NCBI GenBank assembly: GCA_029974925.1 | Contig: JARKQH010000398.1 | Span: 1-52,197 of the forward strand | Source of the DNA: Verrucomicrobiota bacterium | GTDB taxonomy: Bacteria > Verrucomicrobiota > Verrucomicrobiia > Limisphaerales > UBA8199 | Direction: 5' to 3' | Length of the DNA stretch: 52,197 nucleotides | In this document: piece after piece, positions 22,691-51,568 of the stretch | Position numbering within the stretch: position 1 is the stretch's first letter | How the letters are laid out: the number at the start of each line of letters is the position of its first letter | The notes under the pieces: model-generated | The model's database searches: none | What the model was told of the DNA's origin: nothing | The model's input: the letters and a program-made list of their open reading frames with translations, nothing else | Program-made: the position numbers and the translations under genes

Positions 22691-22703
22691 AAACGGGAGG
22701 TCT

Positions 22704-23810
22704 CTACTTGGAGTCGAGTTTTTGGAGCGCAAAGGCGCAGGCGCCAATCGCCACCGCCTCACTGGTGCCCAGCCGCGACATGCCCACGCCGATCCGCGCC
22801 AGGGGGTCGTAGCGCAGCTTGCGGTTGGTGCCGGGCACCGTGATCTCCCGCGTTTGACCGCGGACAAATTGCTCACGCTGCGCCGGGTCCTCCAGGTTGA
22901 AGGCCACCTGAACGAGGCGCCGGAACCGGGTTCCGTTGGGCGCGATGTAGGTGCCGTTCAGCTCATCCACCAGCGCCGGCAGGAACAGCGGCCACGAACC
23001 CGACACCCCCCCTCCAATCACCGCCAGTCCGTCTATCAGCGTCAGGGCTTGGGCCATGGCGTCTCCCACCACTTCACCCAGCCGCCGAAACGCCTCCCGG
23101 GCTGCTGCCTGGTTCCCGGGCGCCTTCCCCTGGGCAATGTCGAACAGCACTTTCGGCTCCGGCACCTGGTCGAAGGGCACCCCGGCCTGCTCGGCGTACG
23201 TGCGCCGGACCGCCCGGATGCTGGCGCCTTCCTCGGCATTGGTTTGCGGGGCGAGTTTGTTGCGGAGCAGCCAGATTTCCCCCGCCATCGAGTTGTCCCC
23301 AATGAACAGTTGGCCGTCGCGCACGATGCCGCCTCCAAACCCGGTCCCCAGTGTGACCCCAAAGAGATTCTTGAACCGCCGGGGACTTCCGGCCTTTTCG
23401 AGCAAGCCGTTCACATACGGCAGAAAGCCTGCAATCGCCTCCCCGTACACAAACAGGTCTCCGTCGTTGTTGATGAAGGTGGGGATGCCGAACTGGTGCT
23501 CGAGCATCGGACCCAGGGCGACTCCCCCGCGAAACCCCGGCAGATTGCCCAGGTCGCCAATGACCCCGTTGGGATAGTCGGCGGGCGCAGGAAAGGCGAA
23601 GCTGATCGCCACCGGGGGCGCGGGGCACTGTTTCTTGATGCGGGTAAAACCCTCGACGAGGTTCGCCAGGCAACGGTCAAGGTCGTCGCCGTTGGCAGGC
23701 AACGTGACGGTCTCGGTGACCGGCTGCAGGCCGCGCATGGCGGTGAAGCGGAAGTTTGTGCCACCGGCGTCGAGGGTCATGACGATGCGTTGATCAGGTG
23801 TCTTGCTCAT
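22704..23810 (-). CDS. ROK-superfamily sugar kinase, zinc motif absent
   Basis: 368 residues from ATG 23810. The phosphate loop is VMTLDAGGTNFRFTAM, the catalytic Asp lies in PTFINNDGDLFVYGEA, and GVTLGTGFGGGIVRDG is the second phosphate-binding strand. The CxCGxxGC zinc-binding cluster of classical ROK kinases and repressors is missing, and there is no N-terminal helix-turn-helix. This is therefore an enzyme, not a NagC-type regulator. Given GH125, GH92 and an MFS transporter around it, mannose is the most plausible substrate, but glucose or fructose cannot be excluded. The upstream gap of 84 bases holds no gene. Confidence 0.82.
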   Translation of the reverse strand: MSKTPDQRIVMTLDAGGTNFRFTAMRGLQPVTETVTLPANGDDLDRCLANLVEGFTRIKKQCPAPPVAISFAFPAPADYPNGVIGDLGNLPGFRGGVALGPMLEHQFGIPTFINNDGDLFVYGEAIAGFLPYVNGLLEKAGSPRRFKNLFGVTLGTGFGGGIVRDGQLFIGDNSMAGEIWLLRNKLAPQTNAEEGASIRAVRRTYAEQAGVPFDQVPEPKVLFDIAQGKAPGNQAAAREAFRRLGEVVGDAMAQALTLIDGLAVIGGGVSGSWPLFLPALVDELNGTYIAPNGTRFRRLVQVAFNLEDPAQREQFVRGQTREITVPGTNRKLRYDPLARIGVGMSRLGTSEAVAIGACAFALQKLDSK

Positions 23811-23894
23811 AAAAGGTGGAGTGTGCTGCCGAGTTAAAGTCGCGAACAATGAATCGGGACGGGACGCCGCCAGCCGGCATTCCCTCTCCCCTGG

Positions 23895-25067
23895 TTATGC
23901 GATGGCGGCGGGGGGTTCCGCAACGGGCCCGGCTGGCTTCCTCCCGCCTTTAAGGGAAAGCAGAAACAGGTAGGCGAAGCAGGCGGCGGGAACGACAAAC
24001 GCCAGGGACTTGAGCGGGCCGACAAACTTGCTCATGATCAGGGGAACAATCGCCCCGCCGGAGATGGCCATGCACATCAAGCCGCTCAGTTCGTTGGCGC
24101 ACTGGGGTTTTTCCTCGACCGTGATCGAAAAGAGCATGGGCCAAATGTTGGCAAATCCCAGCCCGGCCGCAAACACACCGGGAATGGCCAGCGTGGGCGA
24201 CCCGGTCATGATGGCTCCCGCCCCCACGAGCCCAAGCAGCGCGGAAAGCCGGAAACACGTGCGCGCGCTCATCACCGTCAGCAGCACGCCGCCCAGCAGC
24301 CGGCCGATGGTCAGCAGCAGAAAAAACATGGCGGGGCCAAACTTGCTGGCCGTTTCCTCGCTCACCCCCATCTCCTTCAGACCGGGAAAGAGAAACCGTC
24401 CCATCGAGGCTTCGGCGCCCACGTACAAAAAGATGCCCAGGACCGCCAGGAAGAAAACCGGTTGCTTCAGCAGGCCGAGGCTCGACCCGATGCTGGGCGG
24501 CACCTCCGCCTTGCTCTCCTGCACGCGCACCAGCAGCACCCCGACAAAGGCGACCGACATGAGAATGAAGAACAGCGGGAAGGTGCCCCGCCAGCCCATG
24601 CTGGCGAAAAACGCAATCGAGGTGACTGCGGTGACCAGGTAGGTCGAAGCGGTGCTGCCGATGCCTTTGATGCCCTGGGCAAAAGCCAGATTGCGGCTGT
24701 AGTGGCCGGCCGCGCTCACGTCCCGCATAATCGGATTGCCGGAAACCTGGAGAAACGTCGTGCCGATCCCCAGCAGAAAAATGCAGCCCAGCAGCACCGG
24801 GAAGGCCGGCGCCTGCAGCGACGGAATCAAACAGGCCACCGCGTTCAGCCCCAGCCCCAGCAGCAGGAGCTTCTTCTTGCCAATCCGCGCCGCCAGCAGT
24901 CCCCCCGGCACGCTGAAAATCGCAAACGCGATGAACACGAAAAAGGGCAGCAGCGTGGACATCACTTTGCTGACCTGGTAGTGCTTTTCCACGGCATCCG
25001 ACATCGGCCCCATCGCATCAGCCAGACCCATGAGGAAGAAAACGAGAAAAATCGGCAGCGTTCGCAT
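23895..25067 (-). CDS. MFS sugar transporter, FHS (FucP/GluP/NagP-like) group
   Basis: 390 residues with about 12 membrane spans. The first span (MRTLPIFLVFFLMGLADAMG) is followed by the loop motif GGLLAARIGKKKLLLLGLGL, and ISFA-like segments such as FLQVSGNPIMRDVSAAGHYS are typical of fucose/glucose:proton symporters. It starts with a clear AGGA eight bases ahead of the ATG. As first gene of the MFS-kinase-GH125 set it probably imports mannose or mannobiose across the inner membrane. No SusC/SusD pair accompanies the locus, so how oligosaccharides cross the outer membrane is not shown here. Confidence 0.85.
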   Translation of the reverse strand: MRTLPIFLVFFLMGLADAMGPMSDAVEKHYQVSKVMSTLLPFFVFIAFAIFSVPGGLLAARIGKKKLLLLGLGLNAVACLIPSLQAPAFPVLLGCIFLLGIGTTFLQVSGNPIMRDVSAAGHYSRNLAFAQGIKGIGSTASTYLVTAVTSIAFFASMGWRGTFPLFFILMSVAFVGVLLVRVQESKAEVPPSIGSSLGLLKQPVFFLAVLGIFLYVGAEASMGRFLFPGLKEMGVSEETASKFGPAMFFLLLTIGRLLGGVLLTVMSARTCFRLSALLGLVGAGAIMTGSPTLAIPGVFAAGLGFANIWPMLFSITVEEKPQCANELSGLMCMAISGGAIVPLIMSKFVGPLKSLAFVVPAACFAYLFLLSLKGGRKPAGPVAEPPAAIA

Positions 25068-25401
25068 GTGGCGGTTCCTGTTCAGTTAGTTGTTGGTTGT
25101 CGCTTGTTCAAGTGAAGCAATTCAGGGATCACACATTGAGCCATGGACGCGGGCTTGGCAATGCGATTTTGAACCCCGGCGGCGGGCAGGGTTGGGACCG
25201 CCGCCGGTGGCGGGCCGGAACCGCGTTGGCTTCGGGCAAAGACGGCCGGGTCCGACGGAGGGCAAAACGCGGATTGCGCCGGAGGGGGATTTCCGCTATG
25301 GCTGCGGGTAATGATTTGATCGCGGTTTGGCAACGTCCCTAATGGAGCTGGATTCCAGGGGAGGCGCCCCGCCCGCGATCCAGCAACCCATGGCTTGACT
25401 T
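25068..25401. promoter_or_regulatory. Divergent control region of the mannan locus
   Basis: 334 bases between two divergent transcription units (MFS leftward, GH92 rightward). I see no gene here. It must hold both promoters and probably the operator of the locus. TGAAGCAATTCA at 25115-25126 is a short inverted repeat (TGAA/TTCA) about 50 bases before the MFS start and is the only operator-like element I noticed. No regulator gene lies adjacent. Confidence 0.3.
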
Positions 25402-28188
25402 ATGAATATTCAGCGCATTCTGGCGGTGTTTGTTGGCGTGGTTTTGACGGCGGCGCCCGCCCCGGCCGGTTCGCTTCATCCGGTGCAACTGCCGCTGCCC
25501 CTGGTCGGGACGGCGGAGCACGGCCACGCCTACCCCGGCGCGACCGTGCCTTTTGGCATGGTGCAGCTCAGCCCGGACACCACCATTCAAGGCTGGGATG
25601 GCGCCTCGGGGTATCACTACAGCGACAGTGCCATCCGCGGCTTCAGTCACACGCACCTGTCCGGCACCGGCGTCGGTTGCCTCGGGGACGTGCTGCTGAT
25701 GCCCACCCTCGGGGACGTGCGGCTCGACGCGGGGTCGCCGGGCAACGGTTATACCTCGCGATTCTCTCATGCCGAGGAGGAGGCCACCCCCGGTTACTAC
25801 CGGGTCTTCCTTCAGGACCCCCAAGTCACGGCCGAGCTGACCGCCACGGCCCGCTGCGGCTTTCACCGTTACACGTTCCCGGCGGCCAATCCCGCCAACT
25901 TCGTGCTCGATCTGGTCCACGGCATCGCCAATCGCGCGGTCGAAGCCAGCCTCAACATCGAGGACGACACCACGCTCAGCGGCTCGCGCATTTCCGAGGG
26001 CTGGGGCGGGCGCCGCGCCGTTTATTTTGTGATGCGGTTCTCCAAACCGTTCGCCGCCTTCGGCATTGAACAGAACAAACAGCGGCTGGCGGAGGGCACC
26101 CGCAGCGGCCAGGGACGCGAGCTCAAGGGCTTTGTCCAGTTCCAGACCCGGGCGAAGGAGCAAATCCTCGTCAAAGTCGGCATCTCGGGAACCGGCATCG
26201 AAGGGGCGAGAAACAATCTGGCCGCGGAAATTCCGGGATGGAACTTCAACCAGGTGCGGGCGGCGGCCGTCCGGCAATGGCGGGACATGCTGGACCTGGT
26301 GCGCGTGGAGACATCGGATTCCAGGACCCGGAACACGTTCTATGCCAATCTGTACTTGAGCTGCCTGGCGCCGATTCTTTTCAACGATGTGGACGGCACT
26401 TACCGCGGGATGGACCGCCAGAACCACCCCAACCCCGGTTTCCAGAACTACACGATTTTTTCACTGTGGGACACCTACCGCGCGGAACATCCGCTCCTGA
26501 CCCTTCTCCAGCCGGGGCGGGTGGACGACATGATTCAATCCATGCTGGCGGAGTATCGCGAATCGGGGCTGCACACCACGCCGATCTGGCCGCTCTGGGG
26601 CAATGAAACCTGGTGCATGATTGGCTACCACTCCGTGCCCGTGATCGTGGATGCCTGGCTTAAAGGCTTCCGCGGGTTCGACGCCGAGGCTGCCTACCAG
26701 GCGATGCGGGACACTGCCATGCAGGACCGCAACGGCCTCAAGGATTACCGCGAGCTGGGCTATGTGGCCTCGAAACCCCGCGCTGAGGCCACCTCGCGCA
26801 CGATCGAATACACGGTGGACGACTGGTGCCTGGCCAAAATGGCCGAGGCGCTGGGGCACCAGGAAGACGCCCGCCTCTTCTACCGGCGTTCGGCCAATTA
26901 CCGGAACCTGTTCGATCGCAGTGTTGGGTTCTTCCGCGGCCGCAAAGCCGACGGTTCGTGGCGCTCTCCCTTCGTGCCCAACGCCCTGGTGGGCGACGAA
27001 TACACCGAGGCCGACGCCTGGCAGTACGCCTTCGGTGTCCAGCAGGATGTGCCCGGCATGATTTCGCTTTACGGCGGCGATGAGGGCTTTATCCGGAAGC
27101 TGGACGGCCTGTTCACCGCCGACTCCACCATCCAGACCGAAATCCCCGACATCACCGGCCTCATCGGCCAATACTCCCAAGGCAATGAGGCCTGCCACCA
27201 TGTTGCCTACCTCTACCCTTACGCCGGCGCCCCTTACAAGACCCAGCAGCGCGTCCGCCAGATCATGGCCGCCTTCTTCAATGACACCCCCGCCGGCCAG
27301 TGCGGCAACGTGGACTGCGGCCAGATGTCCGCATGGTATGTCTTCAGCGCGCTGGGCTTCTACCCCGTCAACCCCGCCGCGGGCATCTACATCCTCGGCA
27401 GTCCCGTCGTCAACAAAGCTGTGATCTCCCTCGACGCCCGGAAATACCGCGGCCGCAAGTTCACCGTCGTGGCCGAACATAACAGCCCGGAGAATGTTTA
27501 CATCCAGTCCGCCTGGCTCAACGGCAAGCCGCTGGAACAAGCCTGGATCACCCATGACCAGATTGTGGCCGGCGGCACGCTCCGCCTGGTCATGGGCCCG
27601 AAACCCAACCTCGACTGGGGCCGCGCCCCGTCCGCGCGCCCGCCCGCCACCATGCCGGCCGGATTCCAGTATCCCGAACTTCCCCCGCCGGCGGAGGACA
27701 AACCCATTGTGTTTAATCTCCCCATCCGCATTGTCTGCGGGTCCGACGAGCCGGTCGGGCCGTTCGTGCCCGACCCCACGATGTTCATGGGCCACGTCAA
27801 CCAGCGCACGGCGGCCATTGACACCAGCGCACCCGATGCCGCCCCGGCGGGGGTCTATCAGAGCGAGCGTTATGGACGCGATTTCTCGTATGTTTATCCG
27901 GTGCCGAAGGACGGCCGCTACCTCGTGAGACTGCATTTCGCGGAGATTTTCGACGACGGCCCCGGACGCCGTCTGGAGAACATCTACATCAACGGCCGGA
28001 TCGTTCTGAAGGATTTTGATATCTTCGCCGCCGCCGGGGGCTTGAACAAAGCCATCGTCAAGGAGTTCTCCGGCATCCAGCCCGACGACCGCGGCAACAT
28101 CGTGGTTCGGGTTGCCACCACTCCCGAAAGCCCGGATAAGAATGCCAAGCTCAGCGGCTTGGAGATTCTGCCGGCGCAAAAGCTGTAA
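25402..28188 (+). CDS. Glycoside hydrolase family 92 alpha-mannosidase with C-terminal malectin domain
   Basis: 928 residues. Signal peptide MNIQRILAVFVGVVLTAAPA. The GH92 N-terminal domain has GHAYPGATVPFGMVQLSPDT and FSHTHLSGTGVGCLGDVLLM. The catalytic domain has GNETWCMIGYHSVPV, QYSQGNEACHHVAYLYPYAG and CGNVDCGQMSAWYVFSALGF, with family acid and calcium-site residues. From ~775 a malectin-type carbohydrate-binding domain (VYQSERYGRDFSYVYP, LVRLHFAEIFDDG, IYINGRIVLKDFDIFA) completes it. GH92 enzymes are calcium-dependent exo-mannosidases, mostly alpha-1,2. The substrate would be alpha-mannan or N-glycan trimmings. No Shine-Dalgarno is visible before the ATG. Malectin fusion is a notable addition. 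Confidence 0.93.
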   Translation: MNIQRILAVFVGVVLTAAPAPAGSLHPVQLPLPLVGTAEHGHAYPGATVPFGMVQLSPDTTIQGWDGASGYHYSDSAIRGFSHTHLSGTGVGCLGDVLLMPTLGDVRLDAGSPGNGYTSRFSHAEEEATPGYYRVFLQDPQVTAELTATARCGFHRYTFPAANPANFVLDLVHGIANRAVEASLNIEDDTTLSGSRISEGWGGRRAVYFVMRFSKPFAAFGIEQNKQRLAEGTRSGQGRELKGFVQFQTRAKEQILVKVGISGTGIEGARNNLAAEIPGWNFNQVRAAAVRQWRDMLDLVRVETSDSRTRNTFYANLYLSCLAPILFNDVDGTYRGMDRQNHPNPGFQNYTIFSLWDTYRAEHPLLTLLQPGRVDDMIQSMLAEYRESGLHTTPIWPLWGNETWCMIGYHSVPVIVDAWLKGFRGFDAEAAYQAMRDTAMQDRNGLKDYRELGYVASKPRAEATSRTIEYTVDDWCLAKMAEALGHQEDARLFYRRSANYRNLFDRSVGFFRGRKADGSWRSPFVPNALVGDEYTEADAWQYAFGVQQDVPGMISLYGGDEGFIRKLDGLFTADSTIQTEIPDITGLIGQYSQGNEACHHVAYLYPYAGAPYKTQQRVRQIMAAFFNDTPAGQCGNVDCGQMSAWYVFSALGFYPVNPAAGIYILGSPVVNKAVISLDARKYRGRKFTVVAEHNSPENVYIQSAWLNGKPLEQAWITHDQIVAGGTLRLVMGPKPNLDWGRAPSARPPATMPAGFQYPELPPPAEDKPIVFNLPIRIVCGSDEPVGPFVPDPTMFMGHVNQRTAAIDTSAPDAAPAGVYQSERYGRDFSYVYPVPKDGRYLVRLHFAEIFDDGPGRRLENIYINGRIVLKDFDIFAAAGGLNKAIVKEFSGIQPDDRGNIVVRVATTPESPDKNAKLSGLEILPAQKL

Positions 28189-32964: not shown

Positions 32965-32993
32965 ATTTCAATTTAGTTAAAGCTATATTGCAG

Positions 32994-35900
32994 ATGACCA
33001 AACGCGCTGACAGTCAACGCCCGCAGGGCCGCCTCCCGCTCCCCGGGTTGCCGCCCAAACAAGGCCTTTACGACCCGCAGTACGAGCACGATTCCTGTGG
33101 AGTCGGCTTCGTGGTCAACGTCAAAGGCCGGAAGTCCCATGCGATCGTCCGCGATGCGCTGACGATCCTGATCAACCTCCGGCATCGCGGCGCCTGCGGT
33201 TGCGAAAACAATACGGGCGACGGGGCGGGCATTTTGGTTCAGATGCCCCACGAGTTTCTTCAGCAGGCGTGCGAGGAGGCCCGGATTCGGCTGCCTGGGC
33301 CCAAGCAATACGGCTGCGGGCTGGTGTTTCTCCCGCCGGACCGCGCCCAGCGGCAACGGTGCGAGGCGGAGTTTGAGCGCATCGTTCGCGAGGAAGGCCA
33401 GACGCTGCTGGGGTGGCGCAATCTGCCGACCAACAATGGCACCTTGGGCGAAACGGCCAAGGCCGGGGAACCGTTCATCCGGCAGGTGTTCATCGGCCGT
33501 GACCCGGCGATGACCGACGATCTGGCCTTCGAGCGGAAGCTGTACGTGATCCGCCGGCGCGCGGAGAATTCGATCCGATACGGGCACCTGGCGTATGGCC
33601 GCTGGTTTTACATTCCAAGCCTTTCGCACCGGACGCTGGTGTACAAAGGGATGCTGATGGCCGAGCAGTTGGGGCCGTATTTTCCGGAACTGGAAGACCC
33701 GCTGATGCAGAGCGCGCTGGCGCTGGTGCACTCCCGGTTCAGCACCAACACGTTCCCGAGCTGGGACCGCGCGCACCCCTACCGGTTTATCGCCCATAAC
33801 GGCGAAATCAACACCCTCCGCGGCAACATCAACTGGATTCACGCCCGTCAATCGCTTTTCAAGTCCAGTCTCTTTGACGACGACCTCCGCCGCGTGCTGC
33901 CGGTCATTTGTCCGGATGGCAGCGACTCGGCCATGTTCGACAACTGCCTCGAGATGCTGGTGCTCAGCGGCCGAAGCCTGCCGCACGCGGTGATGATGAT
34001 GATTCCCGAGCCGTGGCAGCACCACGAGTCCATGAGCGACGCCAAGAAGGCCTTTTACGAGTTTCACCGGTTCCTGATGGAGCCGTGGGACGGCCCGGCC
34101 TCGATTTCGTTCACGGACGGCATCCAAATTGGGGCCGTGTTGGACCGCAACGGGCTGCGTCCCTCGCGTTATTACGTCACCAAGGATGACACGCTGGTGC
34201 TGGCGTCCGAGGTTGGCGTGCTGGATATCCCGGCCGAAAATGTCCAGGCCAAGGGCCGGCTCCAGCCCGGGCGCATGCTGCTGGTGGATACCGAGCAGGG
34301 CCGGATCGTTTCGGACGAGGAGATCAAGCACCAGATTGCCTCGCAAAAACCCTACCGCCAGTGGTTGAACCAGCACGTGGTCCCCATCGAGGACCTGCCG
34401 GAGGCCGCCCCGGCTCCGGCGCCCGACCGCGAGGGTCTGATTCGTCAACAGCGCGCCTTCGGCTACACCTTCGAGGATCAGCGGTTCATCCTGATGCCGA
34501 TGGCGGTGGAGGGGGTCGAGCCGCTGGGGTCCATGGGTACGGATACGCCGCTGGCCGTGCTTTCGAACAAACCCCAGTTGTTGTTCAATTATTTCAAGCA
34601 GCTCTTCGCCCAGGTCACCAACCCGCCGATTGATTACCTCCGCGAGGCGATTGTCACCTCGACGGAAACGGCCTTGGGAAGCGAGGGCAACCTTTTGGAG
34701 CCCACGCCCGAAAGCTGCCGGTTCGTCAAATTCGAGACCCCGATTTTGACCAACGAAGAACTGGCCCAGATCCAGGCCATTCAACGTCCGGGGTTCAAGT
34801 CCGCCGTGCTGCCCATCCTCTTCCCGGTCGCGGCCGACGGCCCCGGGCTCGAGCAGGCCATGGAGGAGCTTTACCGGCAGGCGGATGTGGCAATCGCCGC
34901 GGGCGCCAACATTCTGATCATGTCCGACCGCGGCATGGACCGTGAGCGCGCGCCGATTCCCTCGTTGCTGGCGGTGGCCGGCCTGCACCACCATTTGATT
35001 CGGGCGGGCACGCGCACGCGGGCCAGCCTGGTGCTGGAATCCGGCGAGCCGCGGGAGGTGCACCATTTTGCGCTGCTGATTGGTTATGGCGTGAGCGCCA
35101 TCAATCCCTACCTGGCGTTCGACACGCTCGATGACCTGATCCGGGAAGGGCTGCTGGAAAATCTGCCTCGCGAAAAAGCCTTCAAGAACTACATCAAGGC
35201 CGCCGTGAAGGGCATCCTGAAGGTCGCTTCGAAAATGGGGATTTCCACCATTCAAAGTTACCGCGGCGCCCAGATTTTCGAAGCGATAGGCCTGAACTCG
35301 GCGTTGGTGGAAAAGTATTTTACGTGGACGGCGTCGCGCATCGAGGGCATCGGCATCCAGGAACTGGCCCGCGAGGTCATCCTCCGGCATCAGACCGCGT
35401 ATGCCGAGCGGCAGGACAACGGCCAGGTGCTGGACCCGGGCGGCCAGTATCAATGGCGGCACGACGGGGAATATCACCTGTTCAATCCGCAGACCATTCA
35501 CCTGTTGCAGGAGGCGGTGCGGACAGGCGACTACCAGCTCTTCAAGAAGTACTCGCAGGCCGTCAACGATCAGGCGCGCAACCTGTGCACCTTGCGCGGG
35601 CTGTTCGAGCTGCGGCTGGCGGCCAAGCCCATCCCCCTGGAGGAAGTCGAGCCGGTGGAAAGCATCATGCGGCGGTTCAAGTCCGGGGCGATGAGCTATG
35701 GCTCCATCAGCCGCGAAGCGCATGAAACGCTCGCCATCGCGATGAACCGCATCGGCGGCAAGAGCAACACCGGCGAGGGGGGCGAAGACCCCGAGCGGTT
35801 TGTGCCGCTGCCCAACGGCGACTCGCGCAACAGCGCCATCAAACAGGTGGCCTCCGGGCGGTTCGGCGTCACCAGCCATTACCTGGTCAACGCGCAGGAG

Positions 35901-37631
35901 CTGCAAATCAAAATGGCCCAGGGCGCCAAGCCGGGCGAGGGCGGCCAGTTGCCCGGACACAAGGTTTATCCGTGGATTGCCCGGACGCGTCACTCCACGC
36001 CGGGGGTGGGCCTGATTTCCCCGCCGCCCCATCACGATATTTACTCCATCGAAGACCTCGCCGAGCTGATTCACGATCTTAAGAACGCGAACCACGAGGC
36101 GCGGATCAGCGTCAAGCTGGTGGCCGAGGTCGGCGTGGGCACCATCGCCGCCGGGGTGGCCAAGGCGCATGCCGATGTGGTGCTGATCAGCGGGCATGAC
36201 GGGGGGACCGGGGCGTCGCCGCTGACGGCCATCAAGCACGCCGGCGTGCCGTGGGAGCTCGGCCTGGCCGAGACGCATCAAACCCTGCTGCTCAACAACC
36301 TTCGCGGCCGCATTGCCGTCGAGGCCGACGGCCAGTTGAAGACCGGGCGCGATGTCATCATTGCGGCCCTGCTGGGCGCCGAAGAGTTCGGCTTTGCCAC
36401 CGCGCCGCTGGTTTCGATGGGTTGCATCATGATGCGCGTTTGCCACAAGAACACCTGCCCGGTGGGGGTGGCCACGCAGGACCCCGAGCTGCGGAAGAAT
36501 TTCCGGGGCAAACCGGAGCATGTGGTGAACTTCATGCGGTTCATCGCGCAGGAAGTGCGGGAGCTCATGGCGCAATTGGGCGTGCGCACGCTCAACAACC
36601 TGATCGGGCGGAGCGACCGGCTCGAGATGAAACGCGCGATCGAGCATTGGAAGGCGCGGGGCCTGGATTTCTCCAGCGTCTTTTATCAGCCCGAGGTGTC
36701 GCCGTTTGTGAAGCGGTTCGCGCAGGACCTGCAGGATCACGAGCTGGACAAGACCCTGGACCGGCAGATGCTCTTGCGCCTGTGCGAGCCGGCCCTGGCG
36801 CGCCGCGAGCCGGTCCGCGCCACCATCCCGATCCGCAACTCGAACCGGGTGGTGGGGACCATGTTGGGCAGCGAAGTCAGCCGGCGTTACCATGCCGAGG
36901 GGCTGCCCGACGACACCATTCATCTGCATTTCAAGGGTTCGGCGGGCCAGAGTTTCGGCGCGTTCATGCCCCGCGGCATCACGTTCGAGCTGGAGGGCGA
37001 CGCCAACGACTATTTCGGCAAGGGGCTCTCCGGCGCGCGCCTGGTGGTTTACCCGCCGCGCGGCTCGACCTTTGCCGCCGAGGAGAACATCATCATTGGC
37101 AACGTCGCGCTCTATGGCGCCACCAGCGGGGAGGCGTTCATTCGCGGAGTGGCCGGCGAGCGCTTTGCGGTGCGCAATTCCGGCGCGCTGGCCGTCGTCG
37201 AGGGCATTGGCGACCACGGGTGTGAGTACATGACCGGCGGACGGGTCGCCATTCTCGGGCGGACCGGCCGCAATTTCGCCGCCGGCATGTCCGGCGGCAT
37301 CGCCTATGTCCTGGACCTGGAGGGGGACTTTGCCCAACGCTGCAACCTCGAGATGGTCACCCTGAACCCCGTGACGGACCCGGAGGAGGCGGCCGAGCTG
37401 CGGCAAATGATCCAGGCCCACCGGGAGCGGACCGGCAGTCTGCGGGCGGGCGCCATTCTGGATGCCTGGGAGGAGCACCTGCCCCGGTTCGTCAAAGTGC
37501 TGCCAAAGGATTATGCGCGGGTGCTGGCGGCCACCCGCAAGGTGCGCGAGTCCGGCCTGAGCGGCGAGGAAGCCGTCATGGCCGCCTTTGTCGAGAACAC
37601 CCGCGACGCCGCGCGGGTGGGAGGCGGCTAG
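32994..37631 (+). CDS. gltB: Glutamate synthase large subunit
   Basis: 1545 residues from ATG 32994. A 34-residue propeptide precedes the nucleophile Cys35 of the class-II amidotransferase domain ([20 protein letters not shown]), which releases ammonia from glutamine. A central domain follows, then the FMN-binding synthase barrel ([59 protein letters not shown]) and the [3Fe-4S] site [14 protein letters not shown]. The C-terminal GXGXG beta-helix domain includes [12 protein letters not shown]-like repeats. It makes two glutamates from glutamine and 2-oxoglutarate with GltD as NADPH-oxidising partner. GltD follows at 56 bases. Confidence 0.97.
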
Positions 37632-37686
37632 AGCGGTTGGAGCCATCACCCGATTTTTACAGCCCGTTCATCTCACTCATTCACCC

Positions 37687-39171
37687 ATGGGAAAACCGAC
37701 AGGATTCATCGAATTCAAACGCGAGTTGCCGCCGGAGCTGGCGCCGTTGGAGCGGATCCGCAACTGGGACGAATTTCATCTCCCGTTCGACGAGCCGAAA
37801 CTGCGCGCGCAGGGCGCCCGTTGCATGGATTGCGGCACCCCGTTCTGCCATACCGGTCATGTCATCGCCGGGGCGGCTTCCGGCTGCCCCATCAACAATC
37901 TCATTCCCGAGTGGAACGACCTGGTGTACCGCGGGAAATGGCAGGAAGCCCTCCAGCGGCTCCATAAAACCAATAATTTCCCCGAGTTCACCGGCCGGGT
38001 GTGCCCGGCGCCGTGTGAGGGGGCGTGCGTGCTCGGCATTATTCAACCGCCGGTCACCATCAAGAACATTGAGTGCGCCATCGCCGACCGCGGGTGGGAG
38101 GAGGGTTGGATTGTTCCTCATCCGCCCGCCCGCCGCACCGGCAAACGGGTGGCGATTGTCGGCTCCGGCCCGGCCGGCTTGTCTTGCGCCGCGCAATTGA
38201 ACCGTGTCGGGCACGAGGTGACGGTCTTCGAGCGGGCGGACCGCATCGGCGGGCTGCTCATGTACGGGATTCCCAACATGAAGCTCGACAAGCGGGTGGT
38301 GCAGCGCCGCGTCGAGCTGCTGGCCTCCGAGGGGGTGCGGTTCATTACCCGCTGCGAAGTGGGCAAGGATCTCCCCGCCGGCAAGCTGCTCGAAGACTAC
38401 GATGCGGCGGTGCTCTGCGGGGGGGCGACCAAGCCGCGTGATTTGCCGGTCGAGGGCCGCAACCTTAAAGGCATTCATTTCGCCATGGAGTTCCTGACCG
38501 CCAACACCCGGAGCTTGCTGGATTCCCAGCACCGCAACGGCGATTTCCTCAGCGCCGCGGGCAAGGACGTCATCGTCGTGGGCGGTGGTGACACGGGGAC
38601 GGATTGCGTCGGCACCTCCCTCCGCCACGGCTGCAACAGTGTGCTGCAGCTCGAAATCCTGCCCAAACCGCCGGACGCGCGTCCGCCGGACAATCCCTGG
38701 CCGCAGTGGCCGCGGGTGTTCCGCGTGGATTACGGCCAGGAAGAGGCGGCCGCCCGCTTCGGCGAGGACCCGCGCCGCTATCGCGTCACCGTGGTGCGCT
38801 TCATCGGAGACGAGCATGGCCACGTCAAGGGCGTTCGCACCGTGGTGGTGGATTGGAAGAAGGATGCCCAGGGCCGCCCCGTGCCCGTGCCGGTGCCCGG
38901 CACGGAGCAAACCCTCCCCGCGCAACTGGTTTTGCTGGCCATGGGTTTTCTGGGACCGGAGGACACGCTGCTGGACCAGCTCGAAATCGAACGGGACGCG
39001 CGCTCGAACGCCCGGGCCGAGTACGGCGCCTTTGCCACCAGCCGCCCCGGGATTTTCGCCGCCGGCGACATGCGCCGGGGGCAAAGCCTGGTGGTGTGGG
39101 CGATCAATGAGGGACGTGGCGCCGCCCGCGAGTGCGACCGCTACCTGATGGGCGAAACTTCCCTGCCCTGA
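37687..39171 (+). CDS. gltD: Glutamate synthase small subunit
   Basis: 494 residues from ATG 37687 ([20 protein letters not shown]). Cys pairs for two [4Fe-4S] clusters lie in [20 protein letters not shown] and [20 protein letters not shown]. The FAD fold is [20 protein letters not shown] and the NADPH fold [20 protein letters not shown]. It ends with [20 protein letters not shown]. It oxidises NADPH and passes electrons to GltB. Its stop codon lies inside the left arm of a perfect terminator-like hairpin. It is distinct in sequence from the GltD-like NfnB at 18685. Confidence 0.96.
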
Positions 39172-39191
39172 CCTCGTTTCGAGGTCAGGGC
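39165..39191. terminator. Bidirectional hairpin between gltD and gdhA, overlapping the gltD stop
   Basis: GCCCTGACCTCG (39165-39176) and CGAGGTCAGGGC (39180-39191) form a perfect 12-base stem with a TTT loop. The gltD TGA (39169-39171) is within the left arm. As gltD and gdhA converge, the same stem can serve both. Confidence 0.65.
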
Positions 39192-39227
39192 TCGACCTTC
39201 AAAGTCTGGCTTGAAAACCGGGGTCGC

Positions 39228-40880
<1,653 letters not shown>

Positions 40881-44588: not shown

Positions 44589-45281
44589 GTGAACGCCGAA
44601 TGGCCATCGCTGACGGACGAGGAGCTGGCGCGGCAAAGCCAGGCCGGCTCCCTGTCCGCCTTTGAGGAATTGGTCCGTCGCTATGAAGCGCGTGTCTTTG
44701 CATTTGTCCGCCGCGGGTGTCGAAATGAGGCCGATGCCCGGGAAATCACGCAGGACACGTTCGTCCGCGCCTTTCAGGCCATTGGCCAGTACCACGTCCA
44801 CCATCCCTTCCGCGTCTGGCTCTTCGCCATCGCCCGCCGCAAATGCATAGACCGCCACCGCGCCACGCGCGAACCTTGCGAGGGCCCGCTGCCGGAGCTG
44901 GCGGATGACCCTGACCCGGCGGAGGTGCTGGCGCGGCGCGAAGCCCGCGCCGACCTCTGGCAGTTGGCGCGCCGCCACCTGCCGCTGGCTCAGTTTGAGG
45001 CCCTCTGGCTGTATTATGCCGAGGACATGGATGTCGCTGAGACTGCCCGGGTTCTGCGCAAGACCCAGACCCATGTGAAAGTGCTCTTGTTCCGCGCCCG
45101 GCGGACGCTGGCGCGCGAACTGCAAAAGCCCCGGCCGGTCGTTGAAATCGCGTCGAAAGCCGTGACCCAAACCTTTCCCGCGAGCGTGGCCTCTCCCCGG
45201 GGTGGCCGCGCCGCAACGGTCAATGCCCTGGCCCGCCCAAACCCCGCCGCGCCGGTTTCCCACGCCCCATTGAACCTATGA
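44589..45281 (+). CDS. ECF-type RNA polymerase sigma factor
   Basis: 230 residues, GTG start. Region 2 is FEELVRRYEARVFAFVRRGC followed by DAREITQDTFVRAFQAIGQY, and WLFAIARRKCIDRHRATRE gives the -10-binding helix. Region 4 is LPLAQFEALWLYYAEDMDVA with ETARVLRKTQTHVKVLLFRA as the helix-turn-helix. There is a ~45-residue C-terminal tail beyond region 4. The stop overlaps the start of the next gene by ATGA, so the partner is made in fixed ratio, as with an anti-sigma factor. Confidence 0.88.
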   Translation: MNAEWPSLTDEELARQSQAGSLSAFEELVRRYEARVFAFVRRGCRNEADAREITQDTFVRAFQAIGQYHVHHPFRVWLFAIARRKCIDRHRATREPCEGPLPELADDPDPAEVLARREARADLWQLARRHLPLAQFEALWLYYAEDMDVAETARVLRKTQTHVKVLLFRARRTLARELQKPRPVVEIASKAVTQTFPASVASPRGGRAATVNALARPNPAAPVSHAPLNL

Positions 45282-46646: not shown

Positions 46647-47354
46647 ATGAGCGTGGCGTCAAAAATGGTCGCGTCGGCCGCCTTGCTCGGCGGTCTGCTG
46701 GTGTGCCTGGCTCTCCTGGCCCGGGCGCAGGGCCAGGACCCGGCCGGCGCGGGGGCCCCTCCGGCCCCTGCCGCATTGGCCGCCACGGCCGGCGCCAGCC
46801 CGCAGCTTCCCCTCGTGGCGCGGCCTCCCGCCGAGCAGCCTCCCGTTGGACTGCCGGGGGATGCGCACCTGGACAAGACGCCGCCCCGCCGGACCAAGGG
46901 ACTGGATCTGGTTCGGATGGGATGGACCTACAACTGCATGGAGTGTCACAAACTCATTCCCGCGCGCTGGCATTACGACCGTCCGATGGCCGAGCACCAG
47001 GACATCCGGCTCGAACACGGCAACAACCGCTTCTGTCTCAATTGCCATCATCCCACCAACCGCAACGCCTTTGTGGACTACGACGGCTCTGAAATCGCCC
47101 AGCGGGATGTCGTCCTGCTCTGCGGCAAATGCCACGGCCCCACCTACCGCGACTGGGAGGCGGGGGTGCATGGCCGCGCCAACGGCTATTGGGACACGCA
47201 GAAGGGGCCCAAGACGAAACTGCGCTGTATTCAATGCCATGACCCGCATCAGCCCGCCTTCAAGCCCATGCCGCCGCTGCCGCCGCTGCGCTATCCGCCG
47301 CGGGCGGCGCATGGCCGCAGCCGTATCGAGCGGCCGGAGGACAATCACCCCTGA
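46647..47354 (+). CDS. Tetraheme c-type cytochrome
   Basis: 235 residues. A hydrophobic N-terminal segment (VASAALLGGLLVCLALLARA) serves as signal or anchor and is followed by a ~60-residue Ala/Pro linker. Four CxxCH heme sites lie at about 97-101 (CMECH), 130-134 (CLNCH), 159-163 (CGKCH) and 194-198 (CIQCH, in CHDPHQPAF). The long linker would let the heme domain reach away from the membrane. As first gene of a four-gene unit it probably carries electrons between the ferredoxin/NrfD module and the octaheme enzyme. The next gene starts seven bases after its stop. Confidence 0.87.
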   Translation: MSVASKMVASAALLGGLLVCLALLARAQGQDPAGAGAPPAPAALAATAGASPQLPLVARPPAEQPPVGLPGDAHLDKTPPRRTKGLDLVRMGWTYNCMECHKLIPARWHYDRPMAEHQDIRLEHGNNRFCLNCHHPTNRNAFVDYDGSEIAQRDVVLLCGKCHGPTYRDWEAGVHGRANGYWDTQKGPKTKLRCIQCHDPHQPAFKPMPPLPPLRYPPRAAHGRSRIERPEDNHP

Positions 47355-47360
47355 CCGGTC

Positions 47361-48335
47361 ATGAACGAGAACCCGCAGAATTCCGTCAGCCCGAAGACCA
47401 TCGAGCAGGTGTATCAACCGGTCACCCGCCGGACCTTTCTCAAAGGCACGGCAGCCGCCATGGCCGGCCTGGCCGGGTTGGTGGCGGCCCTTAAGCCGTT
47501 GCTCGCACTCGAACGCGGGGAGATGACCCTGGATGACCTCTTGCAGAAGCATTACCGCGAGCTTAAGCCCGAGGAGCTGCAACGCATTTTGCGCGAACTG
47601 GAAGCCCGGTGCGCCCGCGAGCATGGCGTCCAACCCGTCATTCGTGATCTCAAGCCGCTCCCGGGCGTCGAGTTTGGCTACGCCCTCAACCTGACGCGCT
47701 GCATCGGCTGCCGCAAATGCGCCCACGCCTGTCTGCAGGAGAACAACCAGTCCCGCTCCTCAGCCGACGACATCGAGATGTCCTACATCCGCGTCCTGGA
47801 GCTCAAAAAAGGCGCGATCAACCTCGAGGAATCGGACCTTTACTACAACCCGCAGACCGTGCCGCAGAAGGACAAATATTACATGCCGGTCCAGTGCCAC
47901 CAGTGCCGGGAGGCGCCCTGCACCAAAGTGTGCCCGGTGCAGGCCACCTGGCAGGAGGCCGACGGCATCGTCGTGGTGGACTACAACTGGTGCATTGGCT
48001 GCCGCTACTGCATGGCGGCCTGCCCCTACGACGCCCGCCGCTTCAATTACCGCAAGCCCAACCTCCAATCCGCCCGGATCAATCCCAACCAAAGCTATTT
48101 GAGCAACCGCATCCGGCCCAAGGGGGTCGTGGAAAAATGCACTTTCTGCCTGCACCGCACCCGCGATGGCAAGTACCCGGCCTGTCTGGAGGTCTGCCCG
48201 ACCGGGGCGCGGGTGTTCGGCAACCTTCTGGACCCCGACAGCGAAATCAGCTACATCCTCAAGAACAAGCGGGTCTATATCTTGAAGGAGGACGTCGGCA
48301 CCCTGCCGCGGTTCTACTATTTCTTTGACCAATGA
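47361..48335 (+). CDS. NrfC/DmsB-like ferredoxin with four [4Fe-4S] sites, Tat-exported
   Basis: 324 residues. TRRTFLKGTAAAMAGLAGLV is a twin-arginine signal (Arg23-Arg24), so it folds with its clusters before export. Four Cys groups follow: CIGCRKCAHAC from ~114, CHQCREAPCTKVCP, CIGCRYCMAACPYDARR, and CTFCLHRTRDGKYPACLEVC. This is the pattern of NrfC, DmsB and PsrB. It overlaps the NrfD-type gene by four bases and would bridge the membrane quinone site to the cytochromes. The ~50-residue helical insert between signal and first cluster is longer than in most relatives. Confidence 0.9.
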   Translation: MNENPQNSVSPKTIEQVYQPVTRRTFLKGTAAAMAGLAGLVAALKPLLALERGEMTLDDLLQKHYRELKPEELQRILRELEARCAREHGVQPVIRDLKPLPGVEFGYALNLTRCIGCRKCAHACLQENNQSRSSADDIEMSYIRVLELKKGAINLEESDLYYNPQTVPQKDKYYMPVQCHQCREAPCTKVCPVQATWQEADGIVVVDYNWCIGCRYCMAACPYDARRFNYRKPNLQSARINPNQSYLSNRIRPKGVVEKCTFCLHRTRDGKYPACLEVCPTGARVFGNLLDPDSEISYILKNKRVYILKEDVGTLPRFYYFFDQ

Positions 48336-49567
48336 GCGAGTATCTGACGTTCCTGTGGCGCGTGGTTCGCATCTCCTTCCAGGGGAGCTGGAAGTTCTAC
48401 GCCTGGATGACGCTGCTGAGCGTGGTCTCGCTGGTGGGCTTGCACGCCTATGCGCGGCAGGTGGTGGAAGGGCTCGAGACGACCGGCATGACCAACCAGG
48501 TCAGTTGGGGCGCCTACATCGCCAACTTTACGTTCCTGGTCGGCGTGGCCGCCGCGGCGGTCATGCTCGTCATCCCCGCCTACATCTACAAGAAGCAGTT
48601 CATGCACGAAGTCGTGCTGTTTGGGGAGCTGATGGCCATCGCGGTCATCATCATGTGCCTGCTTTTTGTGACCGTGGACCTTGGCCATCCCGAGCGGTTC
48701 CACCACATGATTCCCCCCTTCGGCATTTTCAATTTCCCGGGCTCGATTCTTTCGTGGGACGTCATCGTGCTCAACGGTTACCTCCTGCTGAACCTGCACA
48801 TTGCGGGGTATCTGCTCTACTGCCGCTACCGGCAGACCCAGCCGACCAAGAAGTTCTACATCCCGTTCGTCTTCATTTCGATTGCGTGGGCGGTCAGCAT
48901 CCATACCGTCACGGCGTTTCTCTACGTCGGCCTGGCCGGCCGCTCCTACTGGCATCATCCCCTGGTGCCGTCGCGCTTCCTGGCCTCGGCGTTCGTGGCG
49001 GGTCCGGCCCTGATGATCCTGGTCTTCCAGGTCATCCGGCGGTTTGTCCGGTACTGGATCGGCGATGAGCCGATCTTCACCCTGCGCATGATCATGACCG
49101 TTGCGATGATCATCAACATGTTTCTGCTGGGGTGCGAGCTGTTCACCGAATTCTATTCCCCGACCCAGCATGCCGCCGCCGCCCATTACCTTTATTTTGG
49201 GCTGCACGGGCACAACGGCCTGGTGGCCTGGATCTGGACGGCCATCGTGCTGGACCTCGTCGGCCTGGCGCTGCTGATCACGCCGATCAGCCGCAAGATC
49301 ACCGGCCTGAACCTTGCCTGCGTGGCCTGCGTCGTCGGCATTTGGATCGAAAAAGGCATGGGGCTGATCATCCCCGGTTTCGTCCCCTCGCCGCTGGGCC
49401 AGATTGTCGAATACCTGCCCACGTTCAACGAGACGTTGGTCTGTGTGGGCATTTGGGCTTTTGGCGCGCTTTTGTATTCCTGGATGCTCCACGTCGCCAT
49501 TCCCATCATGAATGGCAGCCTCCGGGCACGACCTGAAATCGCCAGTTCAACACAACCCTCCTCATGA
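48332..49567 (+). CDS. NrfD/PsrC-family quinone-interacting membrane protein
   Basis: 411 residues with about nine hydrophobic segments, including SWGAYIANFTFLVGVAAAAV, LMAIAVIIMCLLFVTVDLGH, FNFPGSILSWDVIVLNGYLL and WAVSIHTVTAFLYVGLAGRS. These include the charged and aromatic positions typical of the family. NrfD-type proteins exchange electrons between menaquinone and an attached ferredoxin. It starts within the ferredoxin gene and its stop overlaps the octaheme gene by four bases (ATGA), so all are tightly coupled. It replaces the NapC/NrfH-type or c554 partners seen with most HAO-like enzymes. Confidence 0.9.
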   Translation: MSEYLTFLWRVVRISFQGSWKFYAWMTLLSVVSLVGLHAYARQVVEGLETTGMTNQVSWGAYIANFTFLVGVAAAAVMLVIPAYIYKKQFMHEVVLFGELMAIAVIIMCLLFVTVDLGHPERFHHMIPPFGIFNFPGSILSWDVIVLNGYLLLNLHIAGYLLYCRYRQTQPTKKFYIPFVFISIAWAVSIHTVTAFLYVGLAGRSYWHHPLVPSRFLASAFVAGPALMILVFQVIRRFVRYWIGDEPIFTLRMIMTVAMIINMFLLGCELFTEFYSPTQHAAAAHYLYFGLHGHNGLVAWIWTAIVLDLVGLALLITPISRKITGLNLACVACVVGIWIEKGMGLIIPGFVPSPLGQIVEYLPTFNETLVCVGIWAFGALLYSWMLHVAIPIMNGSLRARPEIASSTQPSS

Positions 49568-51015
49568 TTATGAAAACCTGGTTCCGAACCCGTCTTCCCG
49601 CCGCCGCGCTGATGCTGGCCCTTCCGGGCCTGGCTCAGGCGGGATTCACCCTCAAGGAAATGTCCGCGCAGAGCAAGGCCTGTGTGGAGTGTCACAAAAA
49701 GGAAAGCCCGGCCCTGTACGAACAATGGGGGTCCAGCAAGCACTACCGCGCCAATGTCGGGTGCTTCGAGTGCCACATGGCGGTCGAAGGCGATGCGGAT
49801 GCCTACGAGCATTACGGGCAGAAGATTGCCACGATCGTTTCCCCCAAAGACTGCGGCCGGTGCCATGAACACGAGGTGGCCGAGTTCAACTCGTCCCACC
49901 ACGCCAAGGGCGCCCGGATTCTCGGCTCGCTGGACAATGTGCTGGCCGAGATTGTCGAGGGCAACCGCGGATTCAAGACCCCGGCGTTTCCGCAGGGCAT
50001 TTCCTCGGCGGCCGTCAACGGCTGCTGGCAATGCCACGGGACGGAGGTCAAGATCGGCCCGAACGGCAAACCGGATCCGGCGACCTGGCCCAACACCGGC
50101 ATCGGCCGCATCAACCCGGACGGCAGCGAAGGCTCCTGCGCCGCCTGCCATTCCCGCCACGAATTCTCGTCGGCGCAGGCCCGCACCCCCGACACCTGCG
50201 GCAAATGTCACATGGGGCCGGACCATCCCCAGATCGAAATCTACAACGAATCCAAGCACGGCATCGCCTACCGCGCCAACGTGGACAAGATGAACCTCGA
50301 CAACGAAAAATGGATTGTTGGCGAGGATTACAGCGCCGCGCCCACCTGCGCCACCTGCCACATGAGCGCGACCAAAAACCAGCGGGTCACGCACGACGTC
50401 GGCCTGCGCATCTCCTGGAACAACCGCCCCGAGCTGTCCATCCGTCCCGAGGTCGCCGACGCCAAGCTCGGTCTGCCCGGCAAGGATGTCCCCTGGCAGA
50501 CCCGCCGCACCAACATGGTGGACGTGTGTTTGAACTGCCACAACCAGCACTTTGTGGACTCCTTCTACACCCAATACGACAGCCTGATTGACCTGTACCA
50601 CGAAAAGTTTGCCAAGCCGGGCCTGGCGCTCTATGACGCGGCCAAACCGCTGCTGCGCCCCGCCCAGTTCAGCAACCCCCTCGACTTCACGTGGTATGAA
50701 ATCTGGCACCACGAAGGGCGCCGCGCCCGCCACGGCGTTTCTATGATGGGCCCCGATTATACCCACTGGCATGGCACTTACGAGGTCGCGAAACATTTCT
50801 ACGCCAAATACGTTCCCGAGCTCGAGGAACTGGTGAACCACCACAAGAACTCGACCGACCCCGCCAAAAAAGCGGCGGCGGAAAAGCTGGAAAAACTATT
50901 GGATGAGACGCTCAACCACGCGAATCACCAGTGGTTTTTGAACAAGATGGACCCGGCGGAAAAGGCGCTCCGCGAACAGCAACGCCTCGAATTCCAGAAA
51001 CGGTACTCGAAGTAG
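49564..51015 (+). CDS. Octaheme c-type cytochrome, hydroxylamine oxidoreductase family
   Basis: 483 residues with a Sec signal ending ALPGLAQA. Eight CxxCH sites lie at 40, 67, 97, 154, 192, 212, 262 and 322. RHEFSSAQARTPDTCGKCHM and IEIYNESKHGIAYR around the middle hemes are the family fingerprint. The C-terminal helical part has WYEIWHHEGRRARHGVSMMG then PDYTHWHGTYEV. Tyr399 in this stretch may align with the Tyr that cross-links to the P460 heme in oxidising HAO. Reductive members lack it. The enzyme would act in the periplasm on hydroxylamine, nitrite or a similar compound. It is shorter than Nitrosomonas HAO and has no C-terminal membrane anchor. Confidence 0.86.
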   Translation: MIMKTWFRTRLPAAALMLALPGLAQAGFTLKEMSAQSKACVECHKKESPALYEQWGSSKHYRANVGCFECHMAVEGDADAYEHYGQKIATIVSPKDCGRCHEHEVAEFNSSHHAKGARILGSLDNVLAEIVEGNRGFKTPAFPQGISSAAVNGCWQCHGTEVKIGPNGKPDPATWPNTGIGRINPDGSEGSCAACHSRHEFSSAQARTPDTCGKCHMGPDHPQIEIYNESKHGIAYRANVDKMNLDNEKWIVGEDYSAAPTCATCHMSATKNQRVTHDVGLRISWNNRPELSIRPEVADAKLGLPGKDVPWQTRRTNMVDVCLNCHNQHFVDSFYTQYDSLIDLYHEKFAKPGLALYDAAKPLLRPAQFSNPLDFTWYEIWHHEGRRARHGVSMMGPDYTHWHGTYEVAKHFYAKYVPELEELVNHHKNSTDPAKKAAAEKLEKLLDETLNHANHQWFLNKMDPAEKALREQQRLEFQKRYSK

Positions 51016-51076: not shown

Positions 51077-51568
51077 ATGCCTGCCGAGCCCGACCCCGCG
51101 CCGAACCTGCGGGGCGCTTCGCCCGCCGAGCTCATCCGGGCCGGCGAGAACAGCCTGCGCGAGCACCTGGCCGCGCAGGCCGTGTTGGCCCACCAGAAGT
51201 ACGGGCCCCTCACCTGCGAGAAGCTGGAAGCCTTTCTGAACGACCCGGTTTGTCTCCGTTACCCCACCCGGCTGGTGTTCGAAATCGGGGAAATGGCGCT
51301 GCACCAGTTCGCGCAGCCGGAACGGGACTTCCGCCACCCCGACCGCGACGCGCGCGTGCTTTACCTGCGCCCGCAGCTTGCGGGGCGTCCGGAGTTGATC
51401 ATTCCCGCCGTCGCCTATATGGTTCCGGTCATCAACTACGGCGACATCATCAACGACGACCACTGCCTGCTCTACGGCGCCACCCTGCTGGGACTCATGC
51501 AGGACGAGTTCTATCACCAGGTCTGTGCCGTGGCCGATTTTGTCGGCGCCGAGCCGCGGTTCCCATGA
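51077..51568 (+). CDS. Conserved protein of unknown function
   Basis: 163 residues without signal peptide, membrane segment or Cys motif. SPAELIRAGENSLREHLAAQ and KLEAFLNDPVCLRYPTRLVF are helical, and PAVAYMVPVINYGDIINDDH follows. It may be a small cytoplasmic or metal-binding protein. His and Asp residues in NYGDIINDDHC and DEFYHQVC are candidate ligands. I do not recognise the family. It lies 61 bases after the octaheme gene behind a hairpin and overlaps the GH116 start by ATGA, so it is translationally linked to the downstream gene rather than clearly to the cytochromes. Confidence 0.6.
   Translation: MPAEPDPAPNLRGASPAELIRAGENSLREHLAAQAVLAHQKYGPLTCEKLEAFLNDPVCLRYPTRLVFEIGEMALHQFAQPERDFRHPDRDARVLYLRPQLAGRPELIIPAVAYMVPVINYGDIINDDHCLLYGATLLGLMQDEFYHQVCAVADFVGAEPRFP

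Follow-up and report, generated by a model that had tools for sequence, protein, structure and literature searches.

Gene clusters closely resembling the one considered here have been described in Thermosulfurimonas dismutans (TDIS_0609-0606) and Dissulfuribacter thermophilus (DBT_2326-2329), where a multiheme cytochrome, an FeS protein, an NrfD-family protein and a HaoA-like cytochrome are encoded beside nap, and where the authors left the function of the locus open (PMC4911364, PMC5276818). Neither organism has NrfA, and both convert ~10 mM nitrate to ~10 mM ammonium (PMC5276818). The Nap-adjacent octaheme cytochrome of Caldithrix abyssi, termed eHao, has been proposed as a nitrite reductase (PMC5317091). 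Modules made of an FeS protein and an NrfD-type protein are also found in NrfABCD, where together with a small multiheme relay they supply the pentaheme nitrite reductase NrfA; in MccACD, where they accompany an octaheme sulfite reductase; and in DsrMKJOP, where DsrO and DsrP stand beside the triheme DsrJ.

The window analysed here is the whole stretch of 52,197 nucleotides of contig JARKQH010000398.1, and its assignment to a Verrucomicrobiota host, an uncultured bacterium, was supported. Four ORFs on the + strand, spanning 46647-51015, encode in 5' to 3' order a tetraheme cytochrome, a Tat-exported protein with four [4Fe-4S] clusters, an NrfD-family membrane protein and an octaheme cytochrome (Table 1). 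This is the composition and order published, without an assignment, for T. dismutans and Dissulfuribacter, so that the complex is not wholly undescribed, as the initial annotation had suggested it may be; the window nevertheless comes from a different phylum and its cluster, unlike theirs, does not adjoin nap, the likeness being drawn from the published gene description rather than from sequence. The ORFs, together with the counts of CXXCH and Cys motifs, bear out the four tightly coupled genes, 12 c-hemes (four in the first gene and eight in the fourth) and four [4Fe-4S] sites that had been read from the letters. The two four-base overlaps are likewise present and both flank the NrfD gene, while the first and second genes are separated by 6 bp.

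Table 1. Features of the cluster and of the octaheme cytochrome, in window coordinates.
Feature	Position	Strand	Description
Tetraheme c-type cytochrome, 235 aa	46647..47354	+	4 CXXCH; N-terminal signal or anchor helix; Cytochrome_C7 match
Tat-exported ferredoxin-like subunit, DsrO/NrfC-type	47361..48335	+	16 Cys in four [4Fe-4S] motifs
NrfD-family integral membrane subunit, DsrP-type	48332..49567	+	PF03916, 126.5 bits; ~10 hydrophobic segments (hydropathy)
Octaheme cytochrome c, HAO fold, 483 aa	49564..51015	+	8 CXXCH; signal peptide; Multi-haem_cyto PF13447, 98.9 bits
Heme-4 motif CWQCH, residues 154-158	50023..50037	+	Aligned with heme 4 of HAO/HOX/HDH/HAOr; conserved in 85/85
Heme 4-5 segment with WPNTGIGRINPDGS	50038..50136	+	Common to Ignicoccus OCC; absent from HAO, HOX, HDH and HAOr (alignments)
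Asp220-His221	50221..50226	+	Equivalent of HAO active-site Asp267-His268; conserved in 85/85
His401	50764..50766	+	Column of the P460 cross-link tyrosine; His in 85/85; Trp402 next
Fifth gene, 163 aa	51077..51568	+	No apparent signal peptide; 61 bp 3' of octaheme gene

The membrane module had been taken for an NrfC/NrfD pair, and this stands as far as an FeS protein joined to an NrfD-family (PF03916) protein is concerned; its type, as judged from profile scores, is DsrO/DsrP-like. The NCBIfam DsrP model NF045798 matched the NrfD-family subunit with 409.3 bits (cut-off 350) and the DsrO model NF045797 matched the FeS subunit with 187.9 bits, slightly under its cut-off of 200, whereas the NrfC equivalog TIGR03149 gave 115.7 bits against a cut-off of 377.6 and the membrane module matched none of the NrfD equivalog models. 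The four- or five-gene cluster of the window includes neither DsrM, DsrK nor DsrAB, and its first gene encodes four hemes where DsrJ has three. The FeS subunit also has a Fer4_11 match of 68.7 bits and an RRTFLK Tat motif, with TAT_signal slightly under cut-off. The NrfD-family subunit is presumed to oxidise quinol, and the tetraheme cytochrome, a homologue of which was found in 56 of the 80 related loci (the best 80 of at least 554 matches), is presumed to act as the electron relay that connects the FeS subunit with the octaheme enzyme; the quinone-linked path to the octaheme proposed earlier is supported, with quinol oxidation as its presumed first step. The cluster shares with NrfABCD an FeS and NrfD-family quinol module, a small multiheme relay and, presumably, a terminal nitrite reductase, but differs from it in having an HAO-fold octaheme in place of NrfA, a relay of four hemes and a DsrOP-type module.

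A DsrOP-type module could also serve the reduction of sulfite, tetrathionate or polysulfide, and Slobodkina et al. offered sulfur compounds as the other possibility at the T. dismutans locus; the MccA sulfite reductase is likewise an octaheme with NrfCD-type partners. We consider sulfur-compound reduction by this cluster very unlikely. MccA belongs to another catalytic family, and the octaheme of the window has an HAO fold rather than an ONR or OTR fold, with eight standard CXXCH motifs and hence without the CXXCK catalytic heme motif of ONR (TvNiR). The cluster's relatives, moreover, are linked to nap, and no sulfur-metabolism gene family recurred among the conserved neighbours in the best 80 of at least 554 loci. 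The four- or five-gene cluster of the window includes neither DsrM, DsrK nor DsrAB, and its first gene encodes four hemes where DsrJ has three.

Among solved structures, the octaheme is closest to the Ignicoccus hospitalis OCC 4qo5 (244 bits, versus 115 for HAO), which was also the top Foldseek match. The phylogeny called for by the initial annotation placed it with IhOCC on a separate branch (100/99) apart from HAO/HOX/HDH and also from HAOr, in trees whose long branches leave the deep order unsure. Both proteins carry the heme 4-5 insert; Ignicoccus OCC differs in being archaeal and in having Asp-Val for Asp-His and Thr at the cross-link column. To our knowledge, no NrfCD module accompanies it. 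The HAOr of Kuenenia (6h5l), another un-cross-linked and nitrite-reducing HAO fold with the Asp-His pair, differs from the window protein by a Trp at the cross-link column and by lacking the heme 4-5 insert.

The residues around heme 4, the position at which HAO-family enzymes have their catalytic heme, bear on the direction of the reaction. In the oxidative enzymes HAO, HOX and HDH, a tyrosine is cross-linked to the catalytic heme of an adjoining subunit; this tyrosine is absent here and His401 is found instead in 85/85 sequences, the exact equivalent, His401 or Trp402, depending on the alignment. Tyr399 in 'GPDYTHWHG' was considered as the P460 cross-link residue and rejected: in alignment with solved HAO, HOX, HDH and HAOr chains the tyrosine column falls two residues on, and position 399 varies (Y/I/F/W). 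Reductive enzymes have been described with a His at the cross-link site (PMC12758564), and a passage of PMC8940962 gives as the eHao criterion a Trp near the tyrosine position with a Met eight residues earlier. Trp402 and Met394 of the window octaheme have this spacing and, with His401, are invariant in 42 sequences. The protein thus has the features of the reductive HAO-fold grade (HAOr/eHao/IhOCC), namely the HAO fold, eight CXXCH, the Asp-His pair and no cross-link tyrosine, its likeness to the Campylobacterota eHao resting on published criteria rather than on direct sequence comparison. A genome titled 'Epsilonproteobacteria' (L093) was set aside as a source of a true eHao, its class being one that also holds Bdellovibrionales genomes. 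The eHao (haoCA) systems, which share with the window family the missing tyrosine and linkage to nap (in C. abyssi), differ in their partner, a NapC-type HaoC, as opposed to a tetraheme relay with an FeS and NrfD-type module; the NapC-paired relatives fall outside the clade of the window octaheme.

The direction had been left open, and reduction is now favoured because the oxidative cross-link tyrosine is absent, the reaction itself being deduced from sequence. The HAO fold and the conservation of the Asp-His pair would also suit an oxidative enzyme that dehydrogenates hydroxylamine or hydrazine and passes the electrons to the quinone pool, but given the His in place of the P460 tyrosine and a position outside the HAO/HOX/HDH clade we regard this role as extremely improbable, and hydroxylamine oxidation by the octaheme appears unlikely. 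The octaheme is presumed to be a nitrite reductase. It might instead reduce nitrite to NO rather than ammonium and so feed partial denitrification, as Ferousi et al. 2021, cited in a passage of PMC12758564, is said to report for the un-cross-linked HAOr of Kuenenia, and NO production has been weighed by the Phycisphaerae authors for related octahemes (PMC11266412). This seems rather improbable, as the family branches apart from HAOr and the nap-linked, NrfA-less T. dismutans yields ammonium stoichiometrically (PMC5276818). His401 could also ligate heme 4 and block catalysis, which the poor AF2 model of the octaheme (pLDDT 69, modelled without hemes) cannot decide.

The search for the exact four-gene order that the initial annotation had proposed recovered it in 47 of 80 loci, these being the nearest 80 of at least 554 matches, so that the figures describe the closest relatives rather than the whole family. 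The 47 comprise 45 'HFNO' rows together with L026 and L051, which only seem reordered where ORFs were extended upstream. Because the exact order recurs this often, the cluster is far beyond chance; with the four genes found side by side or nearby in 55 of the same 80 loci, across about ten phyla, it is widely shared and not peculiar to the Verrucomicrobiota genome of the window. In 20 of these 80 loci napA, for the periplasmic nitrate reductase, lies within ~8 kb, where a rough estimate would expect less than one by chance, and this supports the nitrogen-compound chemistry suggested earlier. One of the napA products was confirmed as NapA (926.7 bits, cut-off 904), and NapB, NapD, NapG and NapH are also encoded among the neighbours. 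Loci of Sedimenticola (L081) and Calditrichota (L099) retain the octaheme and nap with no adjacent NrfCD. That napA is nearby in only about a quarter of the loci counts, for its part, against the nitrite-ammonifying reading.

Such an octaheme could also act in the reductive detoxification of hydroxylamine, NO or nitrite from other pathways, with little energetic role. A NapC-paired relative on a Desulfosarcina ovata plasmid (42% identity) has norR and genes for a quinol NO reductase and a hemerythrin as its neighbours, and the host of the window carries COX1-family oxidase genes, so that nitrite respiration would not be indispensable to it. The dedicated quinol module and the nap linkage, however, point to respiration; we judge detoxification unlikely.

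A fifth gene downstream of the octaheme gene, absent from the earlier four-gene description, is a conserved member of the cluster, with homologues in 34 of the best 80 of at least 554 loci; most of them follow immediately 3' of the octaheme gene or of nap genes. Its product is modelled confidently (AF2 pLDDT 93.8), and Foldseek gave no PDB match at E <= 0.001. A later structural comparison returned zincin-like folds weakly (Z 8.5 or less, near the level that the tool regards as common); the HExxH motif is not present in the window's protein.

In the host genome, the search for NrfA returned marginal multiheme matches only, and that for NapA only an NxrA-type enzyme (1729.6 bits to 7b04) and a short PF00384 match whose contig carries Complex I-like genes. 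The lack of NrfA and the presence of an NxrA homologue in the host speak for the nitrite-ammonifying reading, but the host's nitrate-reducing candidate lies on another contig, away from the cluster, which counts against it. Among 50 genomes carrying the octaheme, NrfA was absent in 42, in favour of this reading. Its presence in the remaining 8 counts against it.

Taking gene order, active site and neighbourhood together, the cluster probably encodes a quinol:nitrite reductase that forms ammonium and is, like eHao, of the reductive-HAO kind, with an NrfD-type protein as electron donor. In such a periplasm-facing complex, the NrfD/DsrP-type subunit would oxidise (mena)quinol, and electrons would pass through the Tat-exported subunit with its four [4Fe-4S] clusters and then the tetraheme cytochrome to the octaheme enzyme, where heme 4, free of a tyrosine cross-link, would convert nitrite, as well as hydroxylamine or NO, into ammonium. 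The complex would fill the role of NrfABCD while relying on another catalytic subunit. Nitrite would come in many relatives from the Nap encoded next door, and in this host possibly from a periplasmic molybdoenzyme of the NXR type, whose gene lies elsewhere in the genome.

Octahemes matched by HAO models (PF13447) can be labelled hydroxylamine oxidoreductase, implying nitrification. If they are nitrite-ammonifying reductases, the genomes of many Planctomycetota and Verrucomicrobiota would belong to ammonifiers that retain nitrogen yet lack nrfA, which commonly serves as the marker gene. The pairing with either NapC-type or NrfD-type partners would represent a natural swap of electron-donor modules within the clade on one catalytic scaffold. 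We suggest, tentatively, that tetraheme cytochrome, DsrOP-type module and His-type octaheme form a distinct, NrfA-independent ammonification complex, widely transferred over some ten phyla and often accompanied by a fifth conserved protein that may have a degenerate zincin fold, and that this complex is counted as 'hao' in surveys, with the result that nitrite ammonification would be under-counted and hydroxylamine oxidation over-counted. The cluster may thus be a common, unnamed alternative to the textbook NrfA route.

The four coupled genes that the initial annotation placed at 46647-51015 were recovered at exactly these coordinates, all on the + strand, and the motif counts bear out its 12 c-hemes and four [4Fe-4S] sites. 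The first junction is a 6-bp spacer, while the two claimed four-base overlaps lie at the second and third. The proposed NrfC/NrfD module holds at superfamily level; however, since the membrane protein scores 409 against the NCBIfam DsrP model (cut-off 350), and the best model for the FeS protein, which falls far under the NrfC cut-off, is DsrO (187.9, below its cut-off of 200), it is of DsrOP type in detail. In the portion of Calisto and Pereira's account considered here, NrfD-like complexes include DsrMKJOP and the octaheme sulfite reductase MccACD, and an HAO-fold octaheme complex is not among them.

Features of the octaheme cluster, its surroundings and the host NxrA homologue
Feature	Coordinates	Strand	Remarks
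GH125 alpha-mannosidase and GH92 with malectin domain	21278-28188		mannan or N-glycan breakdown genes
Ammonium-assimilation genes	32988-40565		upstream of cluster
Glutamate synthase large subunit	32988-37631	+	
Probable glutamate synthase small subunit	37588-39171	+	
Glutamate dehydrogenase	39231-40565	-	
ECF-type sigma factor	44589-45281		between ammonium-assimilation genes and cluster
Tetraheme cytochrome	46647-47354	+	4 CXXCH; Pfam Cytochrome_C7
FeS protein	47361-48335	+	16 cysteines in four ferredoxin motifs, RRTFLK Tat motif ahead; Pfam Fer4_11
Membrane protein	48332-49567	+	~10 hydrophobic segments; Pfam NrfD
Octaheme cytochrome	49564-51015	+	8 CXXCH; Pfam Multi-haem_cyto
Fifth gene	51077-51568		163 aa; 61 bp after octaheme gene
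Host NxrA homologue	G000 contig C70, 11084-12919 region (L111 262-3744 -, L117 5846-10911)		

The closest solved chain to the octaheme is the Ignicoccus octaheme cytochrome OCC (4qo5, 244 bits; HAO, 115), to which Foldseek also leads from a weak model, and among the aligned solved structures only these two share a WPNTGIGRINPDGS-bearing segment between hemes 4 and 5. Two trees likewise join the family to OCC, away from HAO, HOX and HDH, with long deep branches of unsure order and, in the second tree, bootstrap not fully settled. In long alignments to HOX, HDH, HAO and HAOr, obtained by way of Scalindua paralogues, the column of the P460 tyrosine that is cross-linked to the catalytic heme in oxidative enzymes (HAO WTY, HOX QTY, HDH ATY) holds His401, a histidine in 85 of 85 family members, whereas HAOr has Trp there; the active-site Asp-His pair is equally invariant (85/85). 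An independent 2025 study reports reductive enzymes that have His at this site (PMC12758564). The eHao pattern of Trp plus Met eight residues earlier (as quoted in PMC8940962) also occurs in the octaheme, as Trp402 and Met394, which would instead equate Trp402 with the tyrosine site; no tyrosine occurs there under either alignment. One Scalindua genome carries two octahemes of this reductive branch (L122, L123) besides its anammox HAO paralogues, and its L082/L122 belongs to the window's clade, has the four-gene cluster and replaces Tyr399 with Trp (PDWTHWHG).

With each species represented by a single genome, a scan returned at least 554 octaheme relatives, the best 80 of which show 60-86% identity and span about a dozen phyla per record names. 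The window order recurs in 47 of these 80 loci; the octaheme gene comes first in seven, one locus is divergent, and the remainder are mostly contig ends or solitary octaheme genes. Homologues at 70% identity or above occur in seven genomes of the host's order (host counted), all keeping the neighbourhood as far as contigs reach, and 5 of 388 evenly drawn Verrucomicrobiota genomes, host included, match at 1e-100 or better. This scattered distribution, together with high identity between phyla, suggests spread by transfer. In the phylogeny, all octahemes paired with tetraheme-FeS-NrfD genes fall in a 29-row clade (100/99), outside which four more distant ones, two on annotated Thermodesulfobacteriota plasmids, pair with NapC/NirT-type cytochromes; the association of octaheme and NrfD-type module thus seems to date from the root of a single clade, with several later losses or separations of the module. 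Two gammaproteobacterial loci (L097, L101) lack this module: their lone octaheme gene is preceded by a Crp/Fnr-like gene and followed by one for a small TPR protein.

The fifth gene has homologues in 34 of the 80 loci (L025-L098), most of them immediately 3' of the octaheme gene, a few 3' of nap genes instead. Its product matched no family in a Pfam search and has invariant N120/Y121 in an INYGD motif; a confident AF2 model weakly resembles zincin-type peptidases, with HExxH absent. It is possibly a maturation factor.

Across the 80 loci, napA lies within ~8 kb in 20, several also with napB, napD, napG or napH, and in Sedimenticola (L081) it directly follows the octaheme gene. Among 50 octaheme-carrying genomes, 42 lack NrfA, 23 match the NapA model at 1e-50 or better (three of these weakly) and 11 have an NxrA-type enzyme. 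Neither NrfA nor NapA was found in the host genome, which encodes COX1-family genes and a Tat-exported, almost complete homologue of subunit A of the Kuenenia nitrite oxidoreductase (PDB 7b04; 1729.6 bits over 1140 residues). This homologue, which adjoins a diheme cytochrome c/EB_dh subunit and has close homologues (70-87%) in several further octaheme-bearing genomes, could work in either direction, reducing nitrate or oxidizing nitrite.

The literature links the cluster physiologically to nitrate ammonification. Thermosulfurimonas dismutans and Dissulfuribacter thermophilus have the same four gene kinds in the same locus-tag order beside nap (PMC4911364, PMC5276818) and, without NrfA, convert nitrate to ammonium quantitatively (PMC5276818), and Caldithrix abyssi, with a tyrosine-less octaheme adjoining Nap, ammonifies nitrate (PMC5317091). 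What the initial annotation saw as a possibly undescribed complex is thus known in its parts, and its composition had been noted in the two thermophiles, with no function assigned; this analysis adds how widely the cluster occurs, its fifth gene, the clade-wide His401 signature, the DsrOP-type nature of its membrane module, the recurring nap link and the division of the octahemes into clades paired with NapC or with NrfD. We conclude that the cluster, whose proteins would oxidize quinol and form a complex, probably encodes a quinol-driven nitrite reductase, the product of which is most likely ammonium.
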